A stretch of 64,000 nucleotides of DNA, taken from Cyrtodaria siliqua (taxonomy: Eukaryota; Mollusca; Bivalvia; Adapedonta; Hiatellidae). The notes beneath the pieces are model-generated. The model saw only the letters and a program-made list of their open reading frames with translations. It made no database searches and was not told the origin of the DNA. Below are positions 285-55,400 of the stretch, piece by piece. A program made the position numbers and the translations under genes. The stretch spans positions 1 to 64,000 of the forward strand of contig JAWPHD010010283.1 of NCBI GenBank assembly GCA_037043455.1, read 5' to 3'. Position 1 is the first letter of the stretch; every line of letters begins with the position of its first letter.

Positions 285-1413
285 GCAACATAGCTATGTG
301 TAAGAATTGATCAAACTACAGAAAAATATGTAAAAAAATCAAGTTTTGAGTCGTGGTGGGGGTGGGGGGTGGGGTGGGGAGAGGTGGAGTGGGGTGGTGG
401 GGGGTAGTGGGGGTGGTTAGGGCAAACATATATGTGTAAGAAGCTATGTGTAAGAAGCTATGTGTAAGAATTGACCAAGAACAACACAGAAATATTTTTT
501 AAAAAAAATAAAAAATTTGAGTTTCGAGTGTGGGGGTGGGGGGTGGAGAGGCAGGGAATGGGGTGGAGGGGGCAACATATATGTGTAAGAAGCTATGTGT
601 AAGAATTGACCAAAACAACAAAGATATATTTAAAAAACAATAAACATTAAATAAAAATATTCCATTTCGAGCGTGGGGGTGGGGTGGGGGTGGGATGGGG
701 GAGGGGAGTGGGGGCAACATAGCTATGTGTAAGAATTGACCAAAACAACACCAGAAATATGTAAAAAAAACACAAAAAAAACATCTGAGCGGGTGTGGGG
801 GTGGGGGGACGGGGTGGGGAGGGGCAGGGAGAGGGAGTAACATATATGTGTAAGAAGCTATGTGCAAGAATTGACCAAAACAACACAGATATATGTAGGG
901 GGTAGTGGGGGGGTGGTTAGGGCAACATATATGTGTAAGAAGCTATGTGTAAGAAGCTATGTGTAAGATTGACCAAAACAACACAGAAATATTTTTAAAA
1001 AAAAAAATAAAAAATTGGAGTTTCGAGTGTTGGGGGGGGGGGGGGGGGGGGGGTGGGGAGAGGCAGGGAATGGGGTGGAGGGGGCAACCATATATGTGTA
1101 AGAAGCTATGTGTAAGAATTGACCAAAACAACAAAGATATATTTAAAAAACAATAAACATTAAATAAAAATATTCCATTTCGAGCGTGGGGGTGGGGTGG
1201 GGGGTGGGGGTGGGGGGAGGGGGGGGAGGTGGGGCAACATAGCTATGTGTAAGAATTGACCAAAACAACACAGAAATATGTAAAAAAAACAAAAAAAAAC
1301 ACATTTGAGCAGGTGTGGGGGTGACGGGGGGGGGGGGGGGGGGGGGGGGGGAGCAACATATATGTGTAAGAAGCTATGTGTAAGAATTGACGAAAACAAC
1401 ACATGCAGAAATA

Positions 1414-1452
<39 letters not shown>

Positions 1453-1765
1453 TCAAGTTTCGACTTGGTGGTGGGGTGGCGTGGGAGGGGGACAGGGGGA
1501 GGGGGCAACATGTTTAAGAATTGACAAAAGCAGCACAGAAATATGTAAAAAAAAAAAAAATGAGTTTCAAGTGGGGGCAAGTGGGGAGAGGCGGGGGTGT
1601 GGGGGAGGGGAGAGGGGGGGAGGGGGCAACATATATGTGTAAGAATCGACCAAAACAACACAGAAAATATGTAAAAAAAAAAAGGAAAAAAATTAAAAAA
1701 GTGTGAAGGGGTGTGTGGGGGGGGGGGGGGGGGAGTGGGGGCTGGGGGGAGGAGGGAGCCCAATG
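285..1765 (+). repeat. Tandem array of mixed G-run / A-run units
   Basis: About ten units of roughly 115-160 bp. Each has 'gcaacatatatgtgtaagaagctatgtg', 'aattgaccaaaacaacacag', an A-rich run (over 25 A near 1418-1449) and a G-rich run (over 20 G near 1325-1350). A larger unit repeats: the 'taaacattaaataaaaatat' stretch is at 641 and again at 1154, 513 bp apart. The plus strand has dense G-quadruplex potential. Minus-strand proline-rich frames are translations of the G runs, not genes. Confidence 0.9.
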
Positions 1766-2684
1766 TCCCAATATGAGTGAAGTATGAATAAGACGCATAA
1801 TGCTATAAGAAATCCCAAACCAAATTTATAGATATATACATGCTTCCTGGCTGCATACCAGATATCGTCATTTTTATGTTGATTCTTTAATATATTTAAA
1901 TCAAAACTAGTCATCTCATAAATATTTTTGTCGGTAGAGAAGCTTACCCCTTTGTCTTAAATATTCTGTGTTTACCTTGCTCCTATTCTCAGTAACAAGT
2001 GTCACGTGACCGTTACTAAATATAGAGTGAATTGGGCCGGTCGTTTGAGCCGAATGTAGTAGTTATCGTCATGTTCAGTTTAATACCAAATAATCCAAGT
2101 TTGGGATGATGAAAATGTGTGTATAGTTTATTAATTGAAACATAAATATACCCACTGCATATGAATACACAAAAAAAATATCTAGAAAAAAAATTATATC
2201 TACAATTTAAAATGTTTTTTCAACTTTAGGTATCGGATGTAATTTATTTCACTTCGACGTTCATAATTTTAAAGAAACTGTCCGCAAATTGAAATTGATT
2301 GACCTGAACTAGTTGTCATCCTTGGCTGAAAATTGTTAGCACATGCTTTTAGTATTTTGGGCATGTCAAATTGATTCAATGGTTCGAAGTAAAAGGTCAG
2401 CTATTTTAAAAGGAAATTTTCCTGCGCATGCGCATTAGCGCGTGATTCCCCCGATTGTGTTTTGTTTATAACGGTATTTATACAGGTAAACGGGTTGGTT
2501 TGAGAGTGTATGTTAACATTTCTAAAACATTTTTTCCTCTCCAATCGTCTGATGATAGTTTGTAGTGATTTGTAAAGTGGGGTCGAAAAACAATATTGAG
2601 CGTTTTATTGATAATGACGAAATCTAGTGAATGACGATAACTGGTACACAACCAGTACATGCAAACCTAGATCTGCCTTTATTG
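1766..2684. other. Unassigned, mostly unique sequence
   Basis: No tandem structure, RNA gene or convincing coding exon seen. It holds CACGTG near 2003 and an NRF1-type palindrome at 2423-2434. A 60-residue minus frame at 2478-2660 has no recognisable features. Confidence 0.5.
2423..2434. promoter_or_regulatory. NRF1-type palindrome TGCGCATGCGCA
   Basis: A perfect 12-bp match to the known NRF1 consensus YGCGCAYGCGCR. Such sites often mark CpG-rich metazoan promoters, but no first exon is visible nearby. Binding is inferred only. Confidence 0.35.
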
Positions 2685-3290
2685 AACATTTTATGGGCCA
2701 TCACTATTTGGGTTCCATGGGAGCCCATAATTTGCAGAAGACAAAATTAATTACCCAACTCTTTACAACATACTTTAAGGAAACCAATTCCAAAATTTAG
2801 TTCAGCTAGGACAAGAAATGCAAGAGAAATAGACCTGTAAACACAGCTTACACGCAAAATTTGATGTGAAACAGACACATTTTAAGGGCTATCAGAATTT
2901 GGGTTCTATGGGAGCACAGGAACCAAAATTACTTAAGCAGCCCTTAAGATAATGCTATAAGGCAGCTAATGGCTAAATATGATTGTGCTAGGGTAAGAAT
3001 TGTAAGAGATATAGACTTGTAAACACAGCTTACACGCAAAATTTGATGTGAAATGGGACACATTTTATGGGCTATCATAAATTGGGTTCCATGGGAGCCC
3101 ATGGGTTACAGGAACCAAACAAGATAATGCTATAAGGAAGCCCATGGCCAAATTTGGTTGTGCTAGGATAAGAAATGTAAGAGATACAGACTTGTAAACA
3201 CAGCTTACATGCAAGCCTTGATGTGGGACGCCGACGCCAACGCCGACGCCGACCCCGGGGTGATTACATAAGCTCACTTATTCTTCGAAT
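2685..3290 (+). repeat. About 180-bp tandem repeat ending in a GACGCC hexanucleotide run
   Basis: Three units start with 'cattttatgggc(c/t)atca' near 2690, 2878 and 3062. Each continues through 'gggttccatgggagccca', 'tgtaaacacagcttaca' and 'ttgatgtg'. The last unit runs into imperfect GACGCC repeats at about 3228-3256, then a short tail 'cttattcttcgaatagtcaa'. Confidence 0.8.
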
Positions 3291-3309
3291 AGTCAAGCTA
3301 AAAAGGACA

Positions 3310-4020
3310 ATTCTAAGTCAAACAAAGGGCCATAATTCTAAAATAAATTAGGCAATCAATGATGGCTGATGTACAGGGACATAAGGTCATCAATTGTTAT
3401 GTGTATATTAAGTTTGGGAACAATCAATTCGAAAATGTTTGAGAAAAAATGTCATTATACATTATACATCAATATCTTTTCACAAAAATGTCATTATACA
3501 AAATTAGGGTGGAAAATTCTAAGTCAAACAAAGGGCCATAATTCTTTAATTAGGTCAATCAATGATGGGTGATGTACAGGGACATAATGTCATCAGTTGT
3601 TATGTGTACATGAAGTTTGGGAACAATCAAATCGAAAATGTTTGAGAAAAAATGTATTAATAGATCATTATACAAATCCTAATTGAAACAGAGGGCCATA
3701 ATTCTGTAATAAATTAGGCATATATATCCCCGACTTCACTTTGTGAAAGCGGGACGGCAGGCGAGGTGTAGTCAAATTAATCTCTCTTTTTGTTTGAAGG
3801 GTTTTTCTTATCCACACGTGTTTTGAAAAGTAACTGGTGGTTTCATACCTAAAATGTTGACAAGGCAAAATTGGCAACATTTCGTTAAATCAAGGGCCAT
3901 AACTCTGATGTTTGTTATAAGATATTGCTGATTTTTAGAACTGTGGGAGCTTTCATTGATTTTAAGATTCTTAAAGTGAAGAGTGGAGGGCAAGGTGTGT
4001 GGATAACAGCAAATTGATCA
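3310..4020 (+). repeat. Dispersed repeat fragments
   Basis: Two copies of the 1-160 family (about 3317-3460 and 3517-3660), followed by fragments with 'agggccataattctg' and 'caagggccataactctg'. No coding potential seen. Confidence 0.7.
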
Positions 4021-4052
4021 ATTTGCTGATACAGCAATAACAGTTAAATTAA

Positions 4053-4660
4053 ACAAGAGGGCCAAGATGGCCTGGAATCGATCACCTGAGGATCTTTGCA
4101 ATGATGAAAAAAATGTCCTCTCGCAAATGCTGATTGAAGATGTTTTTAAGTCTTTCCTTATGTAAATCTATGTAAAAACATGCAAAATTGCTACATACAA
4201 ACTTTGGACACAGGGGTTGCAGCCATCTTTGACCCTAGGGACTTCAAATGAGCAAACTTGATAGACCAGTTAGAGATCATTAATAATAATAAAGAACAAG
4301 AGAACAAGAGGGCCTGTGGATGCTCTACAAGCCAAAATGGCTCTTATATCAAGGGGTTTTATAATTAAACTTCTTTCAATACCTTTTACAAGTGCAAAAC
4401 ACAGCAACACCCTCAACTGAAATTTAAACCCACAACTCCATGCTAACAATTTAAAAGAAGTTTTTCACCACAAAAAAAAATTTGACCGACATATATAACC
4501 TGAGTTACATGTGTTGAAAATGACGTAAAACACCATACAAACAAACAAACAAACAAACAAAACAAAAGTTTTCCCTATATAAGTCTATGTAAAACATGCA
4601 AAATCTTTATATACCAACTTTAGAAAAATAAACAAAAGAAAAAATACATCTAAACAGGAA
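4053..4660 (+). repeat. Heads of modular dispersed elements, with (AAAC)n
   Basis: Two copies of the recurrent head 'acaagagggcc' occur at about 4053 and 4310, the second followed by 'caagccaaaatggctcttat'. A short (CAAA)n microsatellite lies at about 4537-4562. Confidence 0.6.
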
Positions 4661-7784: not shown

Positions 7785-8337
7785 TACTGCAGTTCTCTAG
7801 TCTACAGCAGCGAGATAATACCAGAATAACTGCAGTACTCTGGCTGTGGTAATCTACAGCAATGAGATAATACCAGAACACTGCAGTACTCTATCTGTGA
7901 TAATCTACAGCAGTGCGATATTACCTGAACACTGCAGTACTTAAGCTGTGGTAATCTACAGCAGTGAGATAATACGAGAACACTGCAGTACTCCAGCAGT
8001 GAGATAATACGAGAACACTGAAGTACTCTAGCTATGGTAATCTACAGCAGTGAGATAATACCTGAACACTGCAGTATTCTAGCTGTGGTAATCTACAGCA
8101 GTGCGATAATACCTGAACACTACAGTACTTTAGCTGTGGTAATCTACAGCAGTGAGATAATACGAGAACACTGCAGTACTCCAGCAGTGAGATAATACCA
8201 GAACACTGCAGTTCTCTAGCTGTGGTAATCTACAACTGTGAGATAATACCTGAACACTGCAGTACTCTAGCTGTGGTAATCTACAGCAGTGCAATAATAC
8301 CTGAACACTGCAGTACTTTAGCTGTGGTATTCTTGCA
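7785..8337 (+). repeat. 51-bp satellite, short leading block
   Basis: About eleven units of 'ctgcagtactctagctgtgg' plus 'taatctacagcagtgagata' plus 'atacc(a/t)gaaca', same orientation as the large array. Some units are internally deleted (ctccagcagtgagataata near 7990 and 8180). The block stops abruptly at 'attcttgcattccagacaag'. Confidence 0.9.
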
Positions 8338-9825: not shown

Positions 9826-12800
9826 ATAATCTACAGCAGTGAGATAATACCAGAACACTGCAGTACTCTAGCTGTGGTAATCTACAGCAGTCAGATAATA
9901 TCAGAACACTGCAGTACTCTAGCTGTGGTAATCTACAGCAGTAAGATAATATCAGAACACTGCAGTACTCTAGCTGTGGGAATCTACAGCAGTCAGATAA
10001 TACCAGAACACCACAGTACTCTAGCTGTAGTAATCAAGAGCAGTGAGATAATACCAGAATAATACTGCCGCACTCTGGCTGTGGTAATCTACAGCAGTGA
10101 GATAATACCAGAACACTGCAGTACTCTAGCTGTGGTAATCTACAGCAGTGAGATAATACCAGAACACCATAGTACTCTGGCTGTGGTAATCTACAGCAGT
10201 CAGATCATACCCGAACACCACAGTACTCTAGCTGTGGTAATCTGCAGCAGTAAGATAATGCCAGAACACTGCCCTACTCTAGCTGTGGTAATCTACAGCA
10301 GTGAGGTAATACCAGAATACCGTAAAACTATAGCTGTGATAATCTACAGCAGTGAGATAATACCAGAACACTTCAGTACTCTAGCTGTGGTAATCTACAG
10401 CAGTCAGATAATACCAGAACACCGCAGGACTCTAGCTGTGGTAATCTACATCAGTGAGATAATACCAGAACACTGCAGTACTCACAGCTAATTAGCTAGA
10501 TTACCACAAAATCAATGGTGAAATGACACCTATAGCATAAGCCCTACTGGTCATTGGCTCCTACCAGAATACTTCAGTTCTTTAGCTGTGGTAATCTACA
10601 GCAGTGAGATAATATCAGAACACTGCAGTACTCTAGATGTGGTTATATACAGCAGTGAGATAATACCAGAACACTGCAGTACTCTAGCTGTTCTAATCTA
10701 CAGCAGTGAGATAATACCAGAATACTGCAGTAATTTACCATAACACTCTTGCTGTCGTAATATACAGCAGTGAGATAAAACAAGAATACTGCAAAACTCT
10801 AGCTCTGATAATCTAGAGCATTGAGATAATACCAGATCACTACAGTACTCTAGCTGGGGTAATCTACAGCAGTGAGATGATACCAGAATACTGCAGTACT
10901 TTAGCTGTGATAATCTACAGCATTGATATAATACCAGAATACTGCAGTACTCTAGCTGTGGTAATATACAGCAGTGAGATAATACCAAAACACAGATGTA
11001 CTCTTGCTGTGGTAATCTACAGCAGTGAGATAATACAAGAATACTGCAGTACTTTAGCTGTGATAATCTAGAACACTGAGATAATACCAGAACACTGCAG
11101 TACTCTAGCTGGGGTAATCTACAGCAGTGAGATAATACCAGAACACTGCAGTACTCTAGCTGGGGGTAATCTACATCATTGAGATACTACCAGAATACTG
11201 CAGTACTCTAGCTGTAGTAAACTACAGCAATGAGATAATACCAGAACACTGCAGTACTCTAGCTGGGGTAATCTACATCAGTCAGATAATATCAGATTAC
11301 TGCCGTACTCTAGCTGGGGTAATCTACAGCAGTCAAATAATACCAGAACACTGCAGTACTCTAGCTGAGGTAATCTACAGCAGTGAGATAATACCAGAAC
11401 GCTGCAGTACTCTAGCTGTGGTAATCTACAGCAGTCAAATAATACCAGAACACTGCAGTACTCTAGCTAAGGTAATCTACAGCAGTGAGATAATACCAGA
11501 ACACTGCACTACTCTAGCTGTGGTAATCTACAGCAGTCAAATAATATCAGAATACTGTAAAACTATAGTTGTGATAATCTACAGCAGTGAGATAATACCA
11601 GAACACTGTAGTTCTCTGGCTGTGGTAATCTACAGCACTGAGATAATATCAGAATACTGCAGTACTCTAGCTGTGGTTATCTCCAGCAGTGAGATAATAC
11701 CAGAATATTGCAGTATTTTAGCTGTGGTAGTCTACATCCAGAATACTGTGGTACTCTGGCTGTGGTAATCTATATCAGTGAGTTATTACCAGAATATTGC
11801 AGTACTCTAGCTGTGGTAATCTACAGCAGTGAGATAATACCAGAACACTGCAGTACTCTAGCTGTGGTAATCTACAGCAGTGAGATAATACCAGAATATT
11901 GCAGTACTCTAGCTGTGGCAATCTATAGCAGTGAGATAATACCAGAACACGTCAGTACTCTAGCTGTGGTAATCTATCATAGTGAGATAATACCAGAACA
12001 CTATAGTACTCTAGCTGTGGTTATCTTCAGCATTGAGATAATACCAGAATACTGCAAAACTATAGCTGTGGTTATCTACAGCAGTGAGATAATATCAGAA
12101 TACTGCAGTACTCTAGCTGTAATAATCTACAGCAGTGAGATAATACCAGAACACTGCAGTAATCTAGCTGTGGTAATCTACAGCAGTGAGATAATACCAA
12201 AACACTGCAGTACTCTATCTATGGTGATCTACAGCAGTGAGATAATACCAGAACACTGCAGTACTTTATATATGATGATCTACCACAGTGAGATAATACC
12301 AGAACACTTCAGTACTCTAGCTGTGGTAATCTTCAGCAGTGAGATAATACCAGAACACTTCAGTACTCTAGCTGTGGTAATCTACAGCAGTGAGATAATA
12401 CCAAAACACTGCATTACTATAGCTGTGGTAATCTACAGCAGTTATATAATACCAGAACACTCCAGTACTCTAGCTGTGGTAATCTACAGCAGTGAGATAA
12501 TACCAGAACACTGCCGTACTCTAGCTGTGGTAATCTACAGCAGTGAGATAATATCAGAACACTGCAGTACTCTAGCTATGGTGATCTAAACAGTGAGATA
12601 ATACCAGAACACTTCAGTACTCTAGCTGTGGTAATCTACAGCAGTGAGATAATACCAGAACACTGCAGTACTCTAGCTGTGGTAATCTACAGCAGTGATA
12701 TAATACCAGAACACTGCAGTACTCTACCTGTGGTAATCTACAGCAGTGAGATAATACCAGAATACTGCAGTACTCTAGCTGTAATAATCTACAGCAGTGA

Positions 12801-15800
12801 GATACTACCAGAAGACTGCAGTACTCTAGCTGTGGTAATCTACAGCAGTGAGATAATACCAGAACACTGCAGTACTCTAGCTATGGTGATCTACCACAGT
12901 GAGATAATACCAGAACACTTCAGTACTCTAGCTGTGGTAATCTACAGCAGTGATATAATACCAGAACACTGCAGTACTCTAGCTGTGATAATCTACAGCA
13001 GTGAGATAATACCAGAATACTGCAGTACTCTAGCTGTAATAATCTACAGCAGTGAGATACTACCAGAACACTGCAGTACTCTAGCTGTGGTAATCTACAG
13101 CAGTGAGATAATACCAGAACACTGCAGTACTCTAGCTATGGTGATCTACCACAGTGAGATAATACTAGAACACTTCAGTACTCTAGCTGTGGTAATCTAC
13201 AGTAGTGAGACAATACCAAATCACTTCAGTACTCTAGCTGTGGTCATCTACAGCAGTGAGATAATACCAGAACACTGCAGTACTTTAGCTGTGGTAATCT
13301 ACAGCAGTGAGATAATACCAGAACACAGCAGTACTCTAGCTGTGGTAATCTACAGCAGTGAGATAATACCAGAACACTGCAGTACTCTAGCTGTGGTAAT
13401 TTACAGCAGTGAGATAATACCAGAACACAGCAGTACTCTAGCTGTGGTAATTTACAGCAGTGAGATAATACCAGAACACTGCAGTACTTTAGCTGTGGTA
13501 ATCTACAGCAGTGAGATGATACCAGAACACTGCAGTACTCTAGTTGTGGTAAACTACAGCAGTGCGATAATACCAGAACACTGCAGTACTATTGCTGTGG
13601 TAATCTACAGCAGTGAGATAATACCAGAATATTGCAGTACTCTAGCTGTGGTAATCTATAGCAGTGAGATAATACCAGAACACGTCAGTACTCTAGCTGT
13701 GGTAATCTATCATAGTGAGATAATACCAGAACACTATAGTACTCTAGCTGTTGTAATCTTCAGCAGTGAGATAATACCAGAACACTGCAGAACTCTAGCT
13801 GTTGTAATCTACAACAGTGGGATAATACCTGAACACGGTAGTACTCTAGCTGTGGTAATATACAGCAGTGATATAATATGAGAACACTGCAGTACTCTAG
13901 CTATGGTGATTTACCACAGTGAGATAATACCAAAACACTTCAGAACTCTAGCTGTGGTCATCTACAGCAGTGAGATAATACCAGAATACTGCAGTACTTT
14001 AGCTGTGGTAATCTACAGCATTGAGATAATACCAGAACACTGCAGTACTTTAGCTGTGGTAATCTACAGCATTGAGATAATAACAAAACACTTCAGTAGC
14101 TAGCTGTGGTAATATAGAGCAGTTAAATAATACAAGAATACTGCAGTACTTTAGCTGTGGTAATCTACAGCATTGAGATAATACCAGAACACTGCAGTAC
14201 TTTAGCTATGGTTATCTACAGCAGTGAGATGATACCAGAACACTGCAAAACTCTAGCTGTGGTAATCTACATCAGTGAGATAATATCAAACTAATGCAGT
14301 TCTCTAGCTGTAATAATCTACAGCAGTGAGATAATACCAGAACACTGCAGTACTCTAGCTGTGGTAATCTACAGCAGTGAGATAATACCAGAACACTGCA
14401 GTACTCTAGCTATGGTGATCTACCACAGTGAGATAATACCAGAACACTTCAGTACTCTAGCTGTGGTAATCTACAGCAGTGAGGAATAAATACCAGAACA
14501 CTGCAGTACTCCAGCTGTGAGATAATACCAGAACAATGCAGTTCTCTAGCTGTGGTAATCTACAGCAGTGAAATAATACCAAACACTGCAGTACTCTAGC
14601 TATGGTGATCTACCACAGTGAGATAATACCAGAACACTTCAGTACTCTAGCTGTGGTAATCAACAGTATTGAGATAATACCAGATCACTTCAGTACTCTA
14701 GCTGTTGTCATCTACAGCAGTGAGATAATACCAGAACACTGCAGTACTCCAGCTGTGAGATAATACCAGAACAATGCAGTTCTCTAGCTGTGGTAATCTA
14801 CAGCAGTGAGATAATACCAAACACTGCAGTACTCTAGCTATGGTGATCTACCACAGTGAGATAATACCAGAACACTTCAGTACTCTAGCTGTGGTAATCT
14901 ACAGTAGTGAGATAATACCAGAACACTTCAGTACTCTAGTTGTGGTCATCTACAGCAGTGAGATAATACCAGAACACTGCAGTACTCTAGCTGTGGTAAT
15001 CTACAGCAGTGAGTAAATACCAGAACACTGCAGTAATCAAGCTGTGAGATAATACCAGAACAATGCAGTACTCTAGTTGTGGTCATCTACAGCAGTGAGA
15101 TAATACCAGAACACTTCAGTACTCTAGCTGTGGTAATCTACAGCAGTGAGATAATACCAGAACACTGCAATACTCTAGCTATGGTGATGTACCACAGTGA
15201 GATAATACCAGAACACTTCAGTACTCTAGCTGTGGTCATCTACAGCAGTGAAATAATACCAGAACACTGTAGTACTCTAGCTGTGGTAATCGACAGCATT
15301 GAGATAATACCAGAACACTGCAGTACTCTAGCTGTTTTAATCTACAGCAGTGAGATAATACCAGAACACTGCAGTACTCTAGCTGTGGTAATCTACAGCA
15401 GTGTGATAATACCTGAACACTGCAGTACTCTAGCTGTGGTAATCTACACCAGTGATATAATATGAGAACACTGCAGTTCTCTAGCTATGGTGATATACCA
15501 CAGTGAGATAATACCAAAATACTTCAGTACTCTAACTGTGGTCATCTACAGCAGTGAGATAATACCAGAACACTGCAGTTCTCCAGCTGTAGTAATCTAC
15601 AGCAGGGAAATAATATCAGAATCTAGCTGTGGTAATCGACAGCATTGAGATAATACCAGAACACCTCAGTACTCTAGCTGTGGTCATCTACAGCAGTGAG
15701 ATAATACCAGAACAATGCAGTTCTCTAGCTGTGGTAATCTACAGCAGTGAGATAATACCAGAACACTGCAGTACTCTAGCTATGGTGATCTACCACAGTG

Positions 15801-16635
15801 AGATAATACCAGAACACTTCAGTACTCTAGCTGTGGTAATCTACAGTAGTGAGATAATACTGGAACACTTTAATACTCTAGCTGTGGTAATCTACAGCAG
15901 TCAGATAATACCAGAACACTGCAGTACTCTAGCTGTGGTAATCTACAGCAGTGCGATAATACCTGAACACTGCAGTACTCTAGCTGTGGTAATCTACACC
16001 AGTGATATAATATGAGAACACTGCAGTTCTCTAGCTATGGTGATCTACAGCAAGGATATAATATCAGAATCTAGCTGTGGTAATCGACAGCATTGAGATA
16101 ATACCAGAACACTTCAGTACTCCGGCTGTGGTAATATACAGCAGTGAGTGAGATAATACCAGAACCTAGCTGTGGTAATCTACAGCAGTAAGATAATACC
16201 AGAACATTGCAGTACTCCAGCTGTGGTAATCTATCACAGTGAGTGAGATAATACTAGAATCTAGCTGTGTCTACAGCAAATCTACAGCAGTGAGATAACA
16301 CCAGAACACTGCAATACTCTGTGTGTTGTAATCTATCACAGTAACTGAGATAATACCAGAATCTAGCTGTGGTAATCTACAACAGTGAGATAATACCAGA
16401 ACACTGCAGTACTCTGTGTGTGGTAATCTATCACAGTAGCTGAGATAATACCAGAATATAGCTGTGGTAATCTACAGCAGTGAGATAATACCAGAACACT
16501 GCAATACTCTGCAATACTCTGTGTGTGGTAATCTATCACAGTGAGTGAGATAATTGTGTGATCTACAGCAGTAACATAATACCAGAACACTGCAGTACTC
16601 TAGCTGTGGTAATCTTCAGCAGTGAGATGTATCAG
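9826..16635 (+). repeat. 51-bp satellite, main array (about 130 copies)
   Basis: The monomer is 'gtaatctacagcagtgagat' + 'aataccagaacactgcagta' + 'ctctagctgtg' (51 bp). Because 51 is 17 codons and one frame lacks stops, long frames appear (417 residues at 12628-13881, 293 at 11708-12589) with the period VIYSSEIIPEHCSTLAV. Higher-order structure is clear: a five-monomer block at about 12691 recurs exactly 255 bp later at 12946; a block with 'ccagaatattgcag' at 11891 recurs at 13624. Variants with 'gctatggtgatctaccacag' recur through 12.2-15.8 kb. Single-base indels (e.g. near 12587) break the frame. From about 16100 units are diverged and mixed with 'gtgagtgagata' forms. Non-coding satellite is the best reading. 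Confidence 0.92.
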
Positions 16636-19255: not shown

Positions 19256-19464
19256 TAGAACATGTAATCCCATTTGTTTGCATTCAGACACCTTAAATAT
19301 TTATCATTATTTGAAATATTACTTTATAAAATGCATGTTAGTAATATTAAATTTAGTTTAAGGTGTCGCATTATTTCAAGGGCAAACATGGTATATATCC
19401 TATCATTTTATCCAACTTGTTTAATAAAATCAATAATACACAGTCACTCGTGTAAGATCCTTTA

Positions 19465-19812
19465 TAGTCGGTATGCCAAATGCCAATTTTGGGTCGAACC
19501 CAAATTTGGAGTATGCACAAAATGTTTTTGCATAAAATGGTTCTACAACATATCCTTTCATAGAAACTGAATGATGCAACTCTGTCATCATTGAGCATTT
19601 TGATATATTCAAGATGGAGTCCAAGATGGCCGCCAAAATGAAAAATCCACATGTATCACAAATAACATGAGGTTTGAACAAGAATTTGAAAAAGAAAATT
19701 GTGTTTGTGGTTAGGGATAACATTTTAATAATTAAAATATTGATTTGAAATTAAAAAACACATTTGAAAAATCCAAAATGGCCGCCAAAATGGCCGCCAA
19801 AACCGAAAAATC
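19465..19812. repeat. Left long terminal inverted repeat
   Basis: Reads from 'tagtcggtatgcc' through 'aaatttggagtatgcacaaa', 'tggttctacaacat', 'gaatgatgcaactctg' and 'aaaatggccgccaaaaccga'. All of these appear in reverse complement at 22735-23069. A short extra segment near 19478-19498 is not matched on the right. Confidence 0.85.
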
Positions 19813-20107
19813 CTGTTTTAAAGCAGTATAATCACTAAATGAGCTAATATATGAACACTATTTGGATATTTTTGATAAATGAAACTGTATGTAAATTAAA
19901 GATGGTTCATTGACTATTATTTAATAAAAATAATGGTACATGGGTTGGTTCTTACCAATATAATGAAGGCATAGATTGAAACTGAAAACACAATAATAGA
20001 ATGTGTAGTGTTCTGCAATTTGTTTGATTCATTTACAGATTCTAATATATAATTGAGTCAGTCCATGCTAACATTTCAGCTTGGCATTGGTCAATAATGT
20101 GAATCCA

Positions 20108-20129
20108 GATCAGACTGTACAGTCTGATC
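20108..20129. repeat. Perfect 22-bp palindrome
   Basis: The arms 'gatcagactgt' and 'acagtctgatc' are exact reverse complements with no loop. It sits in the spacer between the left TIR and the 3' end of the element's gene. Function unknown. Confidence 0.7.
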
Positions 20130-20396
20130 ATGATCTACATGTTTCCTCAATCAGATATCCAGATCTGCTTATATCAAAGCTTTATAGATGCTAACGGCGA
20201 ACACATTATATTCAAATCTGACTGGGTGGATGTAAATGCCGATCTAGATCATCACTGCTTGCAAATACTAAGTTTTACCTTTTCGCTCTTTCAATTAATC
20301 TAATTATTGTTCTCTTTATATTATCAATATTCCACATTCTGCATAATTATCCACTTTTTAATTGAAAACCTAATTGATATTCGGCAACACTCATGT

Positions 20397-21665
20397 TCAA
20401 TTGTCGTCTTCACTATCCGATTCACTCGAATCATCATCTGCAGCATTTAATAGTTCATTTACATCCTTTGTTAATCTATTTTGACAATAAGAGGTTTGAC
20501 TGCAATTACAGAATAGTGTACAGGCAAGTTTTGCTCCATAGCAACCACAACGAGATGTTGCACATGGCTGCTCTGAAGCACAACCACAGCAGATAAGCTT
20601 CAGGACACATGCTGGTGCTGGGGCCTTGTTTTCTGGGATTGTAGTAGGTATGAGTATCTTAGAATTAATATCTTTGCTCCATCCAAAGTTGATAGGATCC
20701 ATATTTGGAGGATCTGGTTCCAGCGCACTCCTACATATGCAGGCCTGTATATGTGCCCGTTTGACATTTTCTTTGAAAGATTCTGATGTAGGTGATAACG
20801 ACTGTAGTTTTGGCATCTTTCTGACTGTTTTCTTGCCCATTTTTGATGACCAAACATCATATCTTACACTGGACATACTTGCACCTGTCTTCCTACCATA
20901 ACACGCAGCTATAAAACCGGTAGCTTTTTCATTAACTGTATTCATGTCTGCATCTATATCGCCAAGTTTGTCTAGGTCGCATCCTCGTTTAAGCTGTTTG
21001 ACAACGGTTGCCTTTCCAAGGCCACTAATTTTGGCAACGGTATCGCAGCCAGACAGCGCATGAGCTGCTAAGAGCTGCGGTATAATATCTGCATGTGTTC
21101 TACATGTTGCTGCAATATCTACCACGGTTCGATTAGCGCTAGTTCCTTCCATTAGTAGTGTACATGACAAATTCTTAAGGGCATAGTAGTGAGCCAACAG
21201 CACAAAAACGTCAGTGTCGTCACAGATCACCGTCACAGATTCTGCTCCTTGTGATGCAGCATATACTACCTGCTGTGGAATTATAACATCAGCTTCTTCA
21301 TGACTCGTCCTTAAGTCTACTCGATCAATGACAATCCCCATGTGAATCTCCTGGGGGACCTCTGAGGAACCTGTGATCATAAGCTTATTATTGAAGGTTG
21401 TAGGTAAGTTCATGGCTTTGGCTGTGTGATGCTCACATATCATGTCTATGAGCTGGACCTTGTTGTCTGTGTTTGTCAGGACCTTATGTTGGGCAGGTAA
21501 TGGTGTTGTGGCATTCAATTTGTAATCGATACCAGTCTTCTGACTCCCCCGACTTTTTCTTGTGCTACTCTTGATGCTAAACTGATAGTATTTGTCAAAG
21601 ACCAGATATACGTCAAAAACTTTCAATCTCTTATCCACATACCGGTATTGCCAGAAATTATCCAT
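20397..21665 (-). CDS. FEN1/XPG-like nuclease-fold protein with C-terminal CXC domain
   Basis: A 422-codon frame ending in a stop near the left TIR. Residues 19-32 (VYLVFDKYYQFSIK) match a block I recall from a large, mostly unnamed invertebrate protein family. Residues 121-135 (SHEEADVIIPQQVVY) and 147-156 (VICDDTDVFV) place acidic residues as in the XPG-I/PIN-like active site. Residues 204-221 (ALSGCDTVAKISGLGKAT) resemble the helix-two-turn-helix DNA-binding segment of FEN1 relatives. Residues 322-330 (MDPINFGWS) and a cysteine array at 359-395 (CC.C, C.C.C, C.C) resemble tesmin/TSO1-like CXC domains. An acidic tail (410-422) ends it. The first catalytic aspartate region is not in this frame, so the start at 21665 is probably not the true N terminus: the frame is open upstream to about 21690 with no earlier methionine. 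A DNA-nuclease role is inferred from fold motifs. It lies inside a TIR element, so it may be the element's own mobility protein or cargo. Confidence 0.75.
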   Translation of the reverse strand: MDNFWQYRYVDKRLKVFDVYLVFDKYYQFSIKSSTRKSRGSQKTGIDYKLNATTPLPAQHKVLTNTDNKVQLIDMICEHHTAKAMNLPTTFNNKLMITGSSEVPQEIHMGIVIDRVDLRTSHEEADVIIPQQVVYAASQGAESVTVICDDTDVFVLLAHYYALKNLSCTLLMEGTSANRTVVDIAATCRTHADIIPQLLAAHALSGCDTVAKISGLGKATVVKQLKRGCDLDKLGDIDADMNTVNEKATGFIAACYGRKTGASMSSVRYDVWSSKMGKKTVRKMPKLQSLSPTSESFKENVKRAHIQACICRSALEPDPPNMDPINFGWSKDINSKILIPTTIPENKAPAPACVLKLICCGCASEQPCATSRCGCYGAKLACTLFCNCSQTSYCQNRLTKDVNELLNAADDDSSESDSEDDN

Positions 21666-21675
21666 GAAAGTTACC

Positions 21676-21894
21676 TCATGACTGAATATATCCTACACAG
21701 TCTCTATGACACTGGATCATTAAGGTTTCATCTGTGTGGAGTCTTTTCTCTAGATCGACATGAATATTATCCTGCCTGCGCTTGCTGGAGTAGATAATTG
21801 TTGTAATGCGATCAGCTCCCGCACTGGTAAGTTCTTTCTCAGACTCCCCACACCAATATACTTGGCCGAAAAAGCACTCCATCAGTTTCATCAA
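21676..21894 (-). pseudogene. N-terminal fragment of the same FEN1-like/CXC gene
   Basis: A 72-codon frame directly upstream on the same strand, reading CFFGQVYWCGESEKELTSAG, then ITTIIYSSKRRQDN, LEKRLHTDE and IQCHRDCVGYIQ. Spaced Cys and His (CFF..CG, then CHRDC) look like the N-terminal metal-binding block that I recall ahead of this family. It ends in TGA about 10 bases before the main start, in a different phase. No good splice donor lies before the stop. The locus therefore looks frameshifted and probably internally deleted. An unrecognised intron is the alternative. Confidence 0.5.
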
Positions 21895-22734
21895 TCTGCA
21901 AGAGATACAAATGGATATTCAGTGATTTATTCAATCAATATTTAATGATCTAGACAGATTTACATTTTTGTTCGGACACTAGTATAGTCCGAGCACTACT
22001 ACACTTTTAAGAAAAATCCATCATGTACAGACTAATTTCTAGATTTTTTATATACATAAGGTTATTCACAAAACAATGGATAACCCAGGGACTACACCTA
22101 TATCTTTTAGTAACTTTTATAATACCAACGAAATACAAACTACAAAGTTCAATATTTCTGTTTAAATTTTCCCACTCTTTAAACTTGAACTCTATACAGT
22201 AATCAACCAACCCTGTCATTTATATAAATCAATGTATTTAAATGAATAGACAGTATTATAAGTGTTACTTACCTTCAATACATACTGGGAATTATGATCT
22301 TTTGGATGAATAATTCTTCTAAAGGCAAAATACATTCATTGGAAATCAACATTCCGGGTAAATCAATGGCGCGTGTACAACAAAGAGAAACAACTGAAAT
22401 AACTGAATGATGAAATAACTACAAAGGGAGGCAACTAAAGCGTTATCATACTGATGGTTTGAGCAAATAATGAACATAATTCTGTGTGACATATTGTTTG
22501 ATAAGTATATTATATCAAATTACCAAATTTATACAAATATTTGCGGGGAAAATTGTCATGTTTGTACGAAATGATCTTTGCTTATACTGCTATTTAGTTA
22601 GATTTATTTAGTTGTTTAGGTAATTTTCTTTTCTAAATAGTCATCTTTATGCTAAGCATACTCTATCTGAGATTTCCAATTACTATTGGTAAACAATTCG
22701 TGCAGAAAAACAGCAGAAACTAGAATATATAGAT

Positions 22735-23069
22735 ATTTTTCGGTTTTGGCGGCCATTTTGTCAGCCATTTTGGATTTTTCAAATGTATTTTTTATTTCAA
22801 AATATTATTTTAATTAGTATAATGTTATCCATAACCACATATGCAAAAGTGGTCATCATAATTCTGTTCAAATCTCACGTTTTTTGTGATATAATTTTTA
22901 TTTTTATTTTGGCGGCCATCTTGGCGGCCATCTTGAATATTTCAAAATGCTCAATGATGTCAGAGTTGCATCATTCAGTTTCTATGAAGGGACATGTTGT
23001 AGAACCATTTGATGCAAAAACATTTTGTGCATACTCCAAATTTGGGTTTTTCGATCGGCATACCGACTA
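22735..23069. repeat. Right long terminal inverted repeat
   Basis: Reverse complement of 19465-19812 with scattered substitutions, including the shared 'ttggcggccatcttg' blocks and the end 'ggcataccgacta'. A 102-residue plus frame at 22783-23091 merely reads through this arm. Confidence 0.85.
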
Positions 23070-24802
23070 TTATGTAAGCACAAAGAAGTAAGAATCCCAG
23101 CCAATATTGACCTATGAGCAATTTAAATGTTCAAAGCAAGAGTTTAGATGCTTACAATGCTTACAAGCTTAAATGCAGTAAAAATGTACACATTCACAAT
23201 TAAATTAAACTAGAACATGTATAACATACAAAACATAAAATTCGGTAAAAGCAAAAGGTTATCACGTAAACAATCTGGTATTCCTATATTTTGTCATAAT
23301 CAAGGGCTGTAACTTGTAATGCAAATCTTGATTTTACTAACTGCTGAAACTCACCTTAGAAACAATCTTTAAAATCAATTTTGGTGAAAACTGGAAGAAA
23401 TCTACTTAAGTTATTGTATAAACAAGCTGATACAAGCTTTATTCAATAATCAGGGGGAACAACTCTGTAACACATCTGTCAATTTTGCTCATTGTCCAAC
23501 TTGTCTGAGGTCTCATTTAAGCCATTCTTCAAATCAAATTATGTGAAATTTCAAGTTATCGTGCAAATATGACTGAATTAATGGACAGACCTGTAGGGCT
23601 AAAAATGAAATCTACAACCTGATATGTTTGAATATTTGGCTACAAACCATGATAAATTTTAATGAAAGCAATACAACTGGTATTTGTGTTTCCAGTCTCT
23701 GACCGACCCCAACACTAAAATGGCTGTTTAAAACAGAAAGATAACTGGGCATTTAACCAGAAAACAACAGTCAGTTTATTTGACATTATCTCCACAAACC
23801 AGCAGGAAAAAAATAATAATTAAATATTGTTGCTTATCTGTCTACGATCTAGTGAACATTTTGCTAATTCCATTAACTGTCATCTGAACCTGGTATCTCA
23901 TGAACGAACATTCCAACACTACATGGAAATAAGCACTTCTTTTAACATCATAGAAAGGAAACAATTAGGTGAAAACACAGCTCTTTTGACAAATAATCAT
24001 TAAATCGGTGAATGATTCTCAAAAAATGCTAATAATAATAAAAGCTTACACACATTTTCTAGCTGAGATTATGAATTTAATTCTTTTAATTCCATTATTT
24101 CCTGTTGTTTTTGATCAGAAAAAAGTGTTTAAATTACTATTAATTCATCCCTACTGGCATCATACAGGGTCATTTTTGTATCAGCTGAAACATCTTCAAA
24201 TATCTGACATTAATTTTATGGTATTGACTAAAAGTATTTATTGATGTATAATCAATAAATGAGAGGGCCAAGTTGGCCCTTCAACTTGTATGAAGTGCGT
24301 TAACCATGACGCCATCTGTTTTGGCATCTTGCTCATCAATGTTAGCCTTAACTTGTTATCATTGGTTTTACAGTGTTAAGAAATATAAAAAGATCGGACA
24401 AGGAAAGTAGCATTCAAGGAGGACAGTAAACCACAAAACACAGAAACAAACACGCAAACAGACAAACAAGAAGGCAAAAGCAATAATAAATGCAAACGAC
24501 ATTACAAACACAAAAAGGGTTGACAATAGGGCTACCGCCTTGGAACGGTCAGTGGCAACCCTTAACCCTCTACATATATATATAATGGACTGTTCTTTCT
24601 ACAGAGTCCCTATATCAATCGATTTCTTCTTTGTAGGCGTGTCTTTATTTGTAACTTCATGTTCATCAGCTCATGTCGAAATCGGGTATTTAAGCGAGCA
24701 AATATAGCGCAAGAAATCATTTACTGTAAATACATCGACCAGTGCACATCGTACCTATACACAGGTAACAGTAATTTTTACAGAAAAAAAGTTAGCTTTT
24801 TT

Positions 24803-31997: not shown

Positions 31998-33947
31998 TAT
32001 TTATGGCTTCTGGGAGTGTAATAGAGCCATGACTTATTTCTTGTAATACACTAGTGTACTAAAGACGCAAAATGAGGACCGAATCACTGTGTTTGTGTAT
32101 AGTAGAACATGTAAACCCAATTGTTTGCATGGTATATCATTCAGACACCTTAAATAGTCATCATTATTGAAATATTACTTTATAAAATGCATGTTAGTGT
32201 TGTAGTAGTAACGTTAAATTTAGTTTAAGGTGTCGCATTATTTGTAAGGCAAACGTGGTATAGTCGCGTAACATAGCTGATGTCATGAAAACAACAGAAC
32301 GACGTCATGATTTCCCTTACAAATTGCTGCCATATACACAGTCAACTGACAACATTAAAGTGAAACTATCACATCATAGATATGTTAAGTGATAAATGGA
32401 ACCTTACATTCGAGACTGTGTATTATTGACTTTAATAAACTCTTTAGATAAAAAAGATAGGATACTCGGCAGAGCCTCATATCCTATCATTTTATCCAAC
32501 TTGTTTACTAAAATCAGTAATACAGTCACTCATGTAAGATCCTCTATGTAGGCACAAAGAACCATTAAGAATCCCAGTCAATATTGACCTATGAGCAAAT
32601 TAAATGATAAAAGCAAGAGTTTAGATTGATACAAGCTTAAATGCAATAAAAATCTATACATTCAGAATTAAACTAGAAAATGTATAACATACAAAACATG
32701 AAATTTTGTAAAAGTCGCAAGCAAAAGGTTATCACGTAAACAATCTGGTATTCCCATATTTTGTCATAATCAAGGGCTGTAACTTGCAATGCAAATCTTT
32801 TGATTTTACAAACTGCCGAAATTGACCATAGAAACAATCTTTAAAATCAATTTTGGTGAAAATTGAAAGAAATTTACTGAAGTTATTGCATAATTGCTTT
32901 ATTCAATTATCAGGGGGAACAACTCTGTAACACATATTTCAATTTTGCTCATTGTCCAACTTGTCTGAGCCATTCTTCAAATCAAATTATGTGAAATTTC
33001 AAGTTAATAGGCAAACATGACTGAATTAATGGACTGTAGGGCTAAAAATGAAATCTACAACCTGATATGTTTGAATATTTGGATACGAACCATGATAAAT
33101 TTTAATGAAAGCGATACAAATGGTATTTGTGTTTCCAGTTTCTGACCAACCCCAACACTAAAATGGCTGTTTAAAACAGAAGGATAACTGGGCATATAAC
33201 CAGAAAACAACAGTCAGTTTATTTGACCTTATCTCCACAAACCAGCAGGAAAAAAATATAATTAAATATTGTTGCTTATCTGTCTACGATCTAGTGAACT
33301 TTTTGCTAATTCCATTAACTGTCATCTGAACCTGGTATCTCATGAAGGAACATCCGCAACACTACATGGAAATAAGCACTTCCATTAACATCATAGAAAG
33401 GAAACAATTAGGTGAAAACACAGCTCTTTTGACAAATAATCATTAAATCGGTGAATGATTCTCAAAAAAATGCTAATAATAATAAAAGTTTACACACATT
33501 TTTTAGCTGAGAATATGAATTAATTCTTTTAATTCCATTTATTTCCTGTTGTTTTTGATCAGAAAAAAAGTGTTCAAATTATTATTAATTCATCTCTACT
33601 GTCATCATACAGGGTCATTGTATAAGCTGAAACATCTTCAAATATCTGACATTTATGGTACTGGTTTAAACATATTTTATTTCTCATTATTATTACAACA
33701 TGAAATCTGTACACAATAGCAGAAAAAGGATTAGAACAAAAGTAAAATACTTATGATGTTCTTCTCCTAAAGACATTTAAGGTACTGACGTATTTATTGA
33801 TGTATAATCAATAAACGAGAGGGCTCATAATGTGGGCCTTTCAACTTGTATGAAGTGGGTTAACCATGATGCCATCTATAAATGTTTTGGCCTCTTGCTC
33901 ATCAATGTTAGCCTTAACTTGTTATCATTTTTGGTTTTACAGTGTTA
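31998..33947 (+). repeat. Duplicated dispersed sequence, copy B (uninterrupted)
   Basis: Collinear with copy A (18090-24385). It preserves the empty target of the TA-flanked element (about 32098-32105) and of the TTA-flanked element (CTA at 32544-32546). About 115 bp near 33660-33785 and a 217-bp segment (32264-32481) have no counterpart in A. Confidence 0.85.
32397..32543. mobile_element. 147-bp palindromic MITE with 'ctcggcagagcctc' core
   Basis: Left arm 'gactgtgtattattgacttt' ... 'aaaaaagataggata' pairs with right arm 'tatcctatcattttatcc' ... 'cagtaatacagtcac'. Copy A keeps only the right arm (about 19394-19461). The core resembles that of the 9712-9786 palindrome. Confidence 0.7.
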
Positions 33948-49859: not shown

Positions 49860-50815
49860 GCTCAACAACACATTATAGGTTACTTAGAGCCACCCCAGAA
49901 AGAAGGAAAGGATACATAGGTATCCACAAATTTGCCCTACTCTTACTTATGAAAAAGAAATTCATATGGTTTTGTAACATGCTCAGGCGATAGATACTAT
50001 ATACAGGACCGCTCAGATGATAGATCCTATACATGTGACCGCTCAGATGATAGATCCTATACAGGGGAACCCCCAGGCGATAGATCCCATACATGCCCAG
50101 GCGACAGATCCTATACACGGGACCCCCCAGGCGATAGATCCCATACATGCCCAGGCGACAGATCCTATACACGGGACCCCCCAGGCGATAGATCCCATAC
50201 ATGCCCAGGCGACAGATCCTATACACGGGACCCCCCAGGCGATAGATCCCATACATGCCCAGGCGACAGATCCTATACACGGGACCCCCCAGGCGATAGA
50301 TCCCATACATGCCCAGGCGACAGATTCTATACACGGGACCCCCCAGGCGATAGATCCCATACATGCCCAGGCGATAGATCCTATACACGGAACCCCAAGG
50401 CGATAGATCCCATACATGCCCAGGCGACAGATCCTATACACGGGACCCCCCAGGCGATAGATCCCATACATGCCCAGGTGATAGATCCTATACACGAGAC
50501 CGCCCAGGCAAAAGATCCTATAAACGAGACCATCCATGTGATAGATCCTATACGTGGGACCGCCGATATGATAGATCCTATACACGGGACCGCCAAGGCG
50601 ATAGATCCTATACATGGGACCGCCGAGATGATAGATCCTATACATGGGACAGCCAAGGCGATAGATCCTATACACGGGACCGCCAAGGCGATAGATCCTA
50701 TATACGGGACAGCCCAGCTAACATCCCCATCAAATTGACGAGGCAAAGGGAAAGTGTCTTGACCAAGAACACAACTCAGTGACACTGGTGAGGCTTGAAC
50801 CCATGTTCCCAAGGT
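49860..50815 (-). mobile_element. tRNA-derived SINE copy with internally expanded minisatellite
   Basis: Left part ('ctcaacaacacattatagg', 'aaggatacataggtatcc', 'ttgccctactctta') and right part ('agtgtcttgaccaagaacac', 'gaggcttgaacccatg') match the ordinary copy at 61092-61395. The corresponding single segment there ('aggatagaccaatacacga' + 'accgcccgg') is replaced here by about 700 bp of tandem repeats. Confidence 0.8.
49985..50715 (+). repeat. Minisatellite of 30-bp and 54-bp units inside the SINE
   Basis: The basic unit is about 30 bp ('gatagatcctatacacggga' + 'ccgcccaggc'). In the middle a 54-bp unit dominates, made of one 30-bp and one shortened 24-bp monomer; 'gcgacagatc' at 50101 and 50155 sets the period. 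Frames of 129-210 residues on both strands (e.g. ATDPIHGTPQAIDPIHAQ) follow from 54 and 30 being multiples of three. Confidence 0.9.
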
Positions 50816-53800
50816 CTATATTGTAAACACACATAACCACTATCTGTATTGTAAACAAGCATAACCAGTGTCTGTATTGTAAACAAGCATAACCACTATC
50901 TGTATTGTAAACAAGCATAACCACTATCTGTATTGTAAACAAGCATAACCAGTGTCTATATTGTAAACACACATAACCACTATCTGTATTGTAAACAAGC
51001 ATAACCAGTGTATGTATTGTAAACACACATAACCACTATCTGTATTGTAAACAAGCATAACCAGTGTCTATATTGTAAACAAGCATAACCAGTGTCTGTA
51101 TTGTAAACAAGCATAACCAGTGTCTGTATTGTAAACAAGCATAACCACTATCTGTATTGTAAACAAGCATAACCACTATCTGTATTGTAAACAAGCATAA
51201 CCAGTGTCTATATTGTAAACACACATAACCACTATCTGTATTGTAAACAAGCATAACCAGTGTATGTATTGTAAACACACATAACCACTATCTGTATTGT
51301 AAACAAGCATAACCAGTGTCTATATTGTAAACACACATAACCACTATCTGAATTGTAAACAAGCATAACCAGTGTATGTATTGTAAACAAGCATAACCAG
51401 TGTCTGTATTGTAAACAAGCATAACCAGTGTCTATATTGTAAACAAGCATAAACAGTGTATGTATTGTAAACACACATAACCACTATCTGTATTGTAAAC
51501 AAGCATAACCACTATCTGTATTGTAAACAAGCATAACCAGTGTCTATATTGTAAATACACATAACCACTATCTGTATTGTAAACAAGCATAACCAGTGTA
51601 TGTATTGTAAACAAGCATAACTAGTGTCTGTATTGTAAACAAGCATAACCATGTCTGTACTGTAAACAAGCATAACCACTATCTGTACTGTAAATAAGCA
51701 TAACCAGTGTCTGTACTGTAAACAAGCATAACCAGTGTATGTACTGTAAACAAGCATAACCAGTGTCTGTATTGTAAACAAGCATAACCAGTGTATGTAT
51801 TGTAAACAAGCATAACCACTATCTGTACTGTAAACAAGCATAACCAGTGTCTGTACTGTAAACAAGCATAACCAGTGTATGTACTGTAAACAAGCATAAC
51901 CAGTGTATGTACTGTAAACAAGCATAACCAGTGTCTGTATTGTAAACAAGCATAACCAGTGTATGTACTGTAAACAAGCATAACCAGTGTATGTACTGTA
52001 AACAAGCATAACCAGTGTATGTACTGTAAACAAGCATAACCAGTGTCTGTACTGTAAACAAGCATAACCAGTGTCTGTACTGTAAACAAGCATAACCAGT
52101 GTCTGTATTGTAAACAAGCATAACCAGTGTCTGTATTGTAAACAAGCATAACCAGTGTCTGTATTGTAAACAAGCATAACCAGTGTCTGTATTGTAAACA
52201 AGCATAACCACTGTCTGTACTGTAAACAAGCATAACCAGTGTCTGTACTGTAAACAAGCATAACCAGTGTCTGTACTGTAAACAAGCATAACCAGTGTAT
52301 GTACTGTAAACAAGCATAACCAGTGTATGTACTGTAAACAAGCATAACCAGTGTATGTATTGTAAACAAGCATAACCAGTGTATGTATTGTAAACAAGCA
52401 TAACCAGTGTCTGTATTGTAAACAAGCATAACCAGTGTCTGTATTGTAAACAAGCATAACCAGTGTCTGTACTGTAAACAAGCATAACCAGTGTCTGTAC
52501 TGTAAACAAGCATAACCAGTGTATGTACTGTAAACAAGCATAACCAGTGTATGTATTGTAAACAAGCATAACCAGTGTCTGTACTGTAAACAAGCATAAC
52601 CAGTGTATGTATTGTAAACAAGCATAACCAGTGTATGTATTGTAAACAAGCATAACCAGTGTCTGTATTGTAAACAAGCATAACCAGTGTCTGTACTGTA
52701 AACAAGCATAACCAGTGTCTGTACTGTAAACAAGCATAACCAGTGTATGTACTGTAAACAAGCATAACCAGTGTCTGTACTGTAAACAAGCATAACCAGT
52801 GTCTGTACTGTAAACAAGCATAACCAGTGTATGTATTGTAAACAAGCATAACCAGTGTCTGTATTGTAAACAAGCATAACCAGTGTATGTATTGTAAACA
52901 AGCATAACCAGTGTCTGTATTGTAAACAAGCATAACCAGTGACTGTACTGTAAACAAGCATAACCAGTGTCTGTACTGTAAACAAGCATAACCAGTGTCA
53001 GTATTGTAAACAAGCATAACCAGTGTCTGTATTGTAAACAAGCATAACCAGTGTCTGTACTGTAAACAAGCATAACCAGTGTCTGTACTGTAAACAAGCA
53101 TAACCAGTGTATGTATTGTAAACAAGCATAACCAGTGTCTGTATTGTAAACAAGCATAACCAGTGTATGTATTGTAAACAAGCATAACCAGTGTCTGTAT
53201 TGTAAACAAGCATAACCAGTGACTGTACTGTAAACAAGCATAACCAGTGTCAGTATTGTAAACAAGCATAACCAGTGTCTGTATTGTAAACAAGCATAAC
53301 CAGTGTATGTATTGTAAACAAGCATAACCAGTGTATGTATTGTAAACAAGCATAACCACTATCTGTACTGTAAACAAGCATAACCAGTGTCAGTACTGTA
53401 AACAAGCATAACCAGTGTCTGTATTGTAAACAAGCATAACCAGTGTCTGTATTGTAAACAATCATAACCAGTGTCAGTACTGTAAACAAGCATAACCAGT
53501 GTCTGTATTGTAAACAAGCATAACCAGTGTCTGTATTGTAAACAAGCATAACCAGTGTCAGTACTGTAAACAAGCATAACCAGTGTCAGTATTGTAAACA
53601 AGCATAACCAGTGTATGTATTGTAAACAAGCATAACCAGTGTTTGTATTGTAAACAAGCATAACCAGTGTATGTATTGTAAACAAGCATAACCAGTGTAT
53701 GTACTGTAAACAAGCATACCCAGTGTATGTACTGTAAACAAGCATACCCAGTGTATGTACTGTAAACAAGCATAACCAGTGTATGTACTGTAAACAAGCA

Positions 53801-55020: not shown

Positions 55021-55400
55021 AGAAAACAAACATAAATGTTGTCTATATAGAAAACAAACATAATCTGCGTCTGTATTGTAAACAAACAATTTTTTGTGGT
55101 GGAGGCAGACCACCCGCTTTACATGGGTAGAACCAGTACTGTACATATCCCGCCACCTGTAAGAATTGTATAGAAAACAAACATAACCATTGTCTGTATA
55201 GAAAACAAACCAAATCATTGTCTACATAGAAAACAAACATAACCATTGTATGTATAGAAAACAAACACAACCAGTGTCTGTATAGAAAACAAACAAAATC
55301 ATTGTCTACATAGAAAACAAACGTATAGAAAACAAACATAACCAGTGTCTGTATAGAAAACAAACAAAACCATTGTCTACATAGAAACTAAACATAACCA
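55021..55400 (+). repeat. Diverged 28-bp units ('gtatagaaaacaaacataac')
   Basis: Same length unit, with 'gtatagaaaac' in place of 'gtattgtaaac'. Interrupted at about 55090-55170 by a non-repeat segment containing 'gtggtggaggcagaccaccc'. Confidence 0.8.

Follow-up and report, generated by a model that had tools for sequence, protein, structure and literature searches.

The window analysed here is a 64,000-nucleotide stretch of the Cyrtodaria siliqua genome (assembly GCA_037043455.1, contig JAWPHD010010283.1, positions 1 to 64,000 of the forward strand), and it carries at 19465-23069 a 3,605-bp element whose coding strand is the minus strand. With high confidence, this element derives by internal deletion from a 6.5-kb transposon, likely AcademX, and is itself likely non-autonomous. 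Full-length copies of the transposon in the same genome encode one chain in which a DDE transposase is predicted to be joined to a FEN1/EXO1-like nuclease and a CXC-like tail. An original prediction, made from the window alone, had seen no DDE enzyme and had proposed the nuclease as a candidate mobility enzyme for a transposon class not yet described, or as captured cargo. Because the full-length copies do encode the predicted transposase that the window copy lacks, there is no need to postulate a new class. The nuclease gene in the window is what is left of a transposase-nuclease fusion, of which it formed the C-terminal half, rather than a stand-alone mobility enzyme.

The element in the window

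The element has exact inverted 13-bp ends (TAGTCGGTATGCC; 19465-19477 on the plus strand and 23057-23069 on the minus strand), with no other match in the window at up to two mismatches. Taken alone, these ends are weak evidence, because 10 of 100 shuffles gave at least two loose matches to TAGTCGGTATGCC (again at up to two mismatches). The terminal inverted repeats (TIRs) are about 346 bp long, in agreement with the roughly 345 bp first predicted, and 19497-19811 aligns with 22735-23048 at 88% identity over 317 columns (E 5e-109). TTA stands directly before and after the element. Moreover, an empty site could be read because the flanks of the element lie in a duplicated segment: in copy B the same flanks (91% identical over the last 70 bp on the left and 89% over about 1 kb on the right) are joined at a CTA (32544-32546) with no element between them, confirming the earlier reading of this site. 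On the right, the duplicated segment pairs 23070-24069 with 32545-33512. The features are as follows.

19465..23069, minus strand: internally deleted, likely non-autonomous, AcademX-like copy (ends, TIRs, target-site duplication and deletion)
19462..19464, no strand: target-site duplication TTA, left (flank reading)
23070..23072, no strand: target-site duplication TTA, right (flank reading)
19465..19811, plus strand: left TIR, outer 13 bp exact (end search and self-alignment)
22735..23069, minus strand: right TIR, 88% identical to the left TIR over 317 columns (end search and self-alignment)
20397..21692, minus strand: remnant open reading frame (ORF) of 431 codons, C-terminal FEN1/EXO1-like part and CXC-like tail (motifs FDKY, HEEAD, CDDTD, SGCDT)
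20475..20590, minus strand: CXC-like cysteine-rich tail, approximate bounds
21676..21918, minus strand: remnant N-terminal ORF of 80 codons (MKLMECFFG...HRDCV), Cys/His zinc-finger-like, matching the start of the full-length protein
21670..21694, minus strand: deletion joint, 25-bp filler in place of 2,976 bp (comparison with the L011 element)
32544..32546, no strand: empty site CTA in the duplicated flank, copy B (flank comparison)

The nuclease had been described as the only gene of the element. The 431-codon ORF is real, but the second, 80-codon ORF represents the N-terminal end of the gene from which both descend. Compared with the full-length L011 element, the window copy has lost positions 1370-4345, a segment that held the whole predicted DDE triad as well as the first Asp of the nuclease (position 4287), and its 431-codon ORF lacks this first catalytic Asp (VIDG). 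Within the filler, 18 of the 25 bp (21675-21692) match the element itself from position 4137, about 200 bp off the far edge of the deletion; such element-derived filler is what one would expect if gap repair had been interrupted. The identical deletion joint was also found at locus C3012, where the outer 60 bp are unlike those of the window, and the shortened form has therefore itself moved; the C3012 copy runs off its contig, which leaves its second duplication unreadable. A Pfam search of the window ORF gave no match, the CXC (TCR) profile included, and a sequence search of solved structures with this ORF returned only a chance match to guanylate kinase (E 0.41).

The predicted full-length transposase-nuclease

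Copies were sought in the 2.88-Gb assembly from which the window comes. Two of them, L010 and L011, are 6,544 bp each, 99.74% identical and located at different sites, and both carry one stop-free frame of 1,488 codons, or 1,479 counted from the first Met. The encoded protein contains, in order, two Cys/His segments; the motifs DNFD, TADQQ, GGMH and IET; the motifs VIDG, VFDKY, HEEAD, CDDTD and SGCDT; and a Cys-rich tail. The DDE region is predicted to adopt an RNase H fold in which a helical insertion precedes the last acidic residue, and its model comes closest, at moderate Z, to the P element, then hAT and RAG1; a plain Foldseek search with this model gave nothing significant. The nuclease region matches EXO1/FEN1/XPG by predicted fold, at about 10-17% identity when aligned structurally with FEN1, EXO1 and XPG, in line with the FEN1-like character first assigned to it. 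As such, the full-length copies are predicted to encode in one chain a DDE transposase, a FEN1/EXO1-like nuclease and a CXC-like tail.

The predicted active sites were further examined in relatives. A protein search gave 354 matches and another, started from a 733-aa relative, gave 378, the best 120 being listed in each case; among the matches listed, relatives reach at most 1,283 aa, and the best-scoring one with a species name, among the best 120 of 354, is from Pinctada imbricata (53% identity). Three sets, chosen by length and coverage from 202 relatives, were aligned (A1, n = 83; A2, n = 33; A3, n = 41). In A2, among sequences covering the column and in P0133 numbering, the predicted DDE residues are D99 of DNFD (21/21), D271 (27/27) and E474 (32/32), and D96 is present in 20/21. 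The predicted fold is accompanied in the full-length relatives of A2 by the seven acidic residues of the FEN1/XPG superfamily, kept in 31 or 32 of 32 (last Asp 31/31), with equivalence assigned by motif to human FEN1 active-site positions rather than by residue-level structure alignment. Both predicted active sites are thus strongly conserved across relatives, suggesting that both are in use and that the nuclease is probably not just carried along.

The CXC domain originally proposed is supported as a CXC-like Cys-rich tail. Eight Cys are kept in 28/28 sequences of A2, the CXC (TCR) profile matches 3 of 33 relatives (best E 0.011), and the UniRef name of P0004 begins 'Tesmin/TSO1-like CXC domain'. 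Pfam matched five families in the 33 relatives, with no helicase among them. DUF6589 (PF20231) was matched by 16 of the 33 (best 3.5e-7) and appears in the precomputed domain listing for P0181, P0186 and P0191; this family is unnamed in the literature searched. For the FEN1-CXC domain order, no description was found in the literature searched; the main AcademH paper lay outside that search, so this is not evidence that the order is unpublished.

Genomic copies and their deletions

A 636-bp left-end probe gave 322 candidates and 40 scored matches, 18 of them over the full probe (window included) and the remainder mostly to the opposite TIR. Examination of 20 stretches revealed 14 with both ends and six one-ended (L021, L022, L024, L026, L027 and L028), of which L022 and L026 meet a contig end. 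In addition, the 26-base right end had 23 genome matches at up to two mismatches, and the reversed control had none. All 15 complete copies (the window and these 14) match parts of one fusion protein, and all have a perfect 3-bp duplication (TTA, ATA, ATA, TAA, TTA, TAG, TGT, TGA, TGC, TAA, CTA, AGG, TTA, ATA and TGA) with no 4-bp duplication in any of the 15; random window triplets match at 0.02. The family has thus moved with a 3-bp duplication.

Apart from the two intact copies, L009 is 99.66% identical to L011 and has one stop and a frame break, and the other long copies (L012-L016, L023 and L025) each have at least one stop, frame break or both. As a side observation, L014 and L023, at different sites, have in common an insertion of about 466 bp near full-length position 5705, with a 6-bp overlap at its edges. 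Five internal-deletion classes were distinguished among the 15 complete copies (the window; L017-L019; L020; L015; L016), all falling before position 4346 of the L011 element, a bias that may follow from the interior location of such deletions. In L015, moreover, about 2 kb of other sequence stands in place of 127 bp of the nuclease part (4385-4511). L017, L018 and L019 carry one common double deletion and sit at three sites, each with its own duplication sequence, so deleted forms, too, have moved. In these three copies the 3' end of the frame is changed (...HCQRM) and the first Glu of HEEAD is Lys.

The ratio of nonsynonymous to synonymous substitution rates (dN/dS) of the nuclease relative to L011 was 0.96 in L017, 1.2 in L018, 0.68 in L019, 0.98 in L020 and 0.5 in the window copy (17 changes), these deleted-copy values resting on 17-24 changes each. 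It was 0.56-0.88 in L012-L016, L023 and L025, and 1.41 on six changes in L009. Given these values in the deleted and the other long copies, there is no good evidence from sequence comparison that the remnant proteins are kept by selection.

Other families in the same genome

A protein query of the genome gave 4,145 candidates, of which 32 were scored, with 45 matches. Two loci, C4143 and C3234, have open frames with 49% identity to the query protein. The listed loci include 18 of other families, and flanks were read for nine. TIRs were found in seven of the nine (C4143, C3234, C7789, C1994, C2025, C19830 and C5710), and flank reading found none in C13390 and C1645. An exact 3-bp duplication was present in five of the nine (C3234 TAC, C1994 ATT, C2025 GAT, C19830 TAG and C5710 TTA); none was found at C7789, and none was seen by eye at C4143, whose ends are eroded. 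Common ends were shared by C4143 and C2025, by C1994, C19830 and C5710, and by C7789 and one flank of C1645, and the ends of the other families start with TAGT where readable. The diverged families C4143, C3234 and C7789 have the same nuclease-DDE fusion as the family in the window. The locus C13390 (L036 and L037) holds a relative at 64% identity to the full-length gene; searching about 1.9 kb on either side revealed no TIR.

Class assignment and alternative explanations

The family is likely to belong to the AcademX lineage of Academ, because its DDE and nuclease architecture, 3-bp duplication and length fit the description of that lineage. AcademX is associated with 3-4 bp duplications and AcademH with 9-10 bp duplications, a difference linked to the encoded nuclease or helicase (Kojima; PMC10045372). 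The full-length copies described here have a predicted DDD/E transposase, a predicted nuclease and a 3-bp duplication, in which they resemble AcademX as so described; the window copy differs from AcademX in lacking the DDE part. With AcademH the family shares the superfamily name and the pairing of a DDD/E transposase with a second DNA enzyme, but neither a helicase, among the five Pfam families matched by the 33 relatives, nor a 9-10 bp duplication was found. The CXC-like tail, the TAGT termini and the exclusively 3-bp duplications are further features of the family. KolobokE is similar in outline, its nuclease being encoded downstream of the DDD/E transposase domain (PMC9587614).

The FEN1/EXO1/XPG nucleases share the predicted fold and motif set with the present domain, which differs in lying within a transposase chain at the low identity given above. 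The P element, hAT (Hermes) and RAG1 transposases share the predicted RNase H fold and the helical insertion before the last acidic residue; none of them is known to have a fused FEN1 nuclease. Duplications are 8 bp long for the P element and hAT and 5 bp for RAG1, and Kolobok duplicates TTAA.

That a FEN1-like nuclease alone moves an undescribed class of transposon is highly improbable. Such a reading draws on the nuclease being the largest open frame of the window element, on its being the largest frame, with DDE parts missing, in 5 of the 15 complete copies (the window and L017-L020), and on the internal deletions of the window, L017-L020 and L016 sparing everything after position 4346. It was dropped because the full-length copies carry the nuclease in one frame with a predicted DDE domain. 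The original prediction had itself named copies with the same TIRs and a standard transposase as evidence against it, and L010 and L011 have the same ends together with a predicted DDE domain whose acidic residues are conserved. The missing first catalytic Asp of the window version, the near-neutral dN/dS in L017-L020 (the window value of 0.5 coming from 17 changes) and the insertion inside the nuclease part of L015 likewise argue against it.

It is similarly very doubtful that the element is a non-autonomous PIF/Harbinger, or another element with a 3-bp duplication, that captured a nuclease gene as cargo. The 3-bp duplication of PIF/Harbinger is restricted to TWA, the target originally predicted here, and the TTA of the window fits it. 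The 3-bp length held in all complete copies; nevertheless, only 5 of the 15 duplications are TTA or TAA, and a Harbinger-type target was rejected for that reason. All 15 complete copies match parts of the one fusion protein, no search aimed at Harbinger proteins having been made. The in-frame nuclease-DDE fusion in intact copies and in the three diverged families, together with the exact 3-bp duplications at five of nine related loci, also argues against cargo. A separate superfamily, with an AcademX-like nuclease and 3-bp duplications but an unrelated DDE domain, is unlikely, although the DDE part models closest to the P element, then hAT and RAG1. The nuclease of Academ is described as 'XPG'. 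Against a separate superfamily, both the architecture and the length of the duplication correspond to what is described for AcademX, and Academ is amplified in bivalves, with 100 curated consensus elements of mean length 5,565 bp (PMC10294476).

Other features of the window

Three tandem arrays were also detected: one at 9827-16510 (about 6.7 kb) with a 51-bp unit, also read as 102 or 153 bp; a shorter array of the 51-bp unit at 7805-8333; and one at 50814-55085 with a 28-bp unit in about 153 copies (93% matches).

Possible mechanism and implications

For the AcademX-like fusion protein, the N-terminal Cys/His segments and the CXC tail may bind DNA at the element ends, and the predicted DDE site would cut the 3' ends and join them across a 3-bp stagger. 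The fused nuclease could then trim the non-transferred strand at its 5' ends or flaps; alternatively, the FEN1-like domain may make the second-strand cut at excision. The window copy would be mobilised in trans by the full-length protein, and its deletion may have arisen when repair of an excision gap was interrupted. Model retroviral integration intermediates that carry 5' overhangs are repaired in vitro by host FEN1 acting together with polymerase beta and ligase I (PMC7551943), and the fused FEN1-like domain could by analogy perform the matching step. Tentatively, the fusion might form a self-contained chain for cutting, pasting and trimming, in which DDE strand transfer is followed in the same complex by cleavage of the non-transferred strand or removal of 5' flaps, so that the transposon itself would supply a flap-processing step for which retroviral integration depends on the host, and in this way would fix its short duplication.

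With the transposase accounted for, the remaining interest lies in the fused nuclease. Common, unnamed animal proteins ('CXC domain-containing' or uncharacterised) are explained as likely transposase-nuclease fusions, and the family offers intact, near-identical copies for asking why a flap nuclease has been retained within a DDE transposase.
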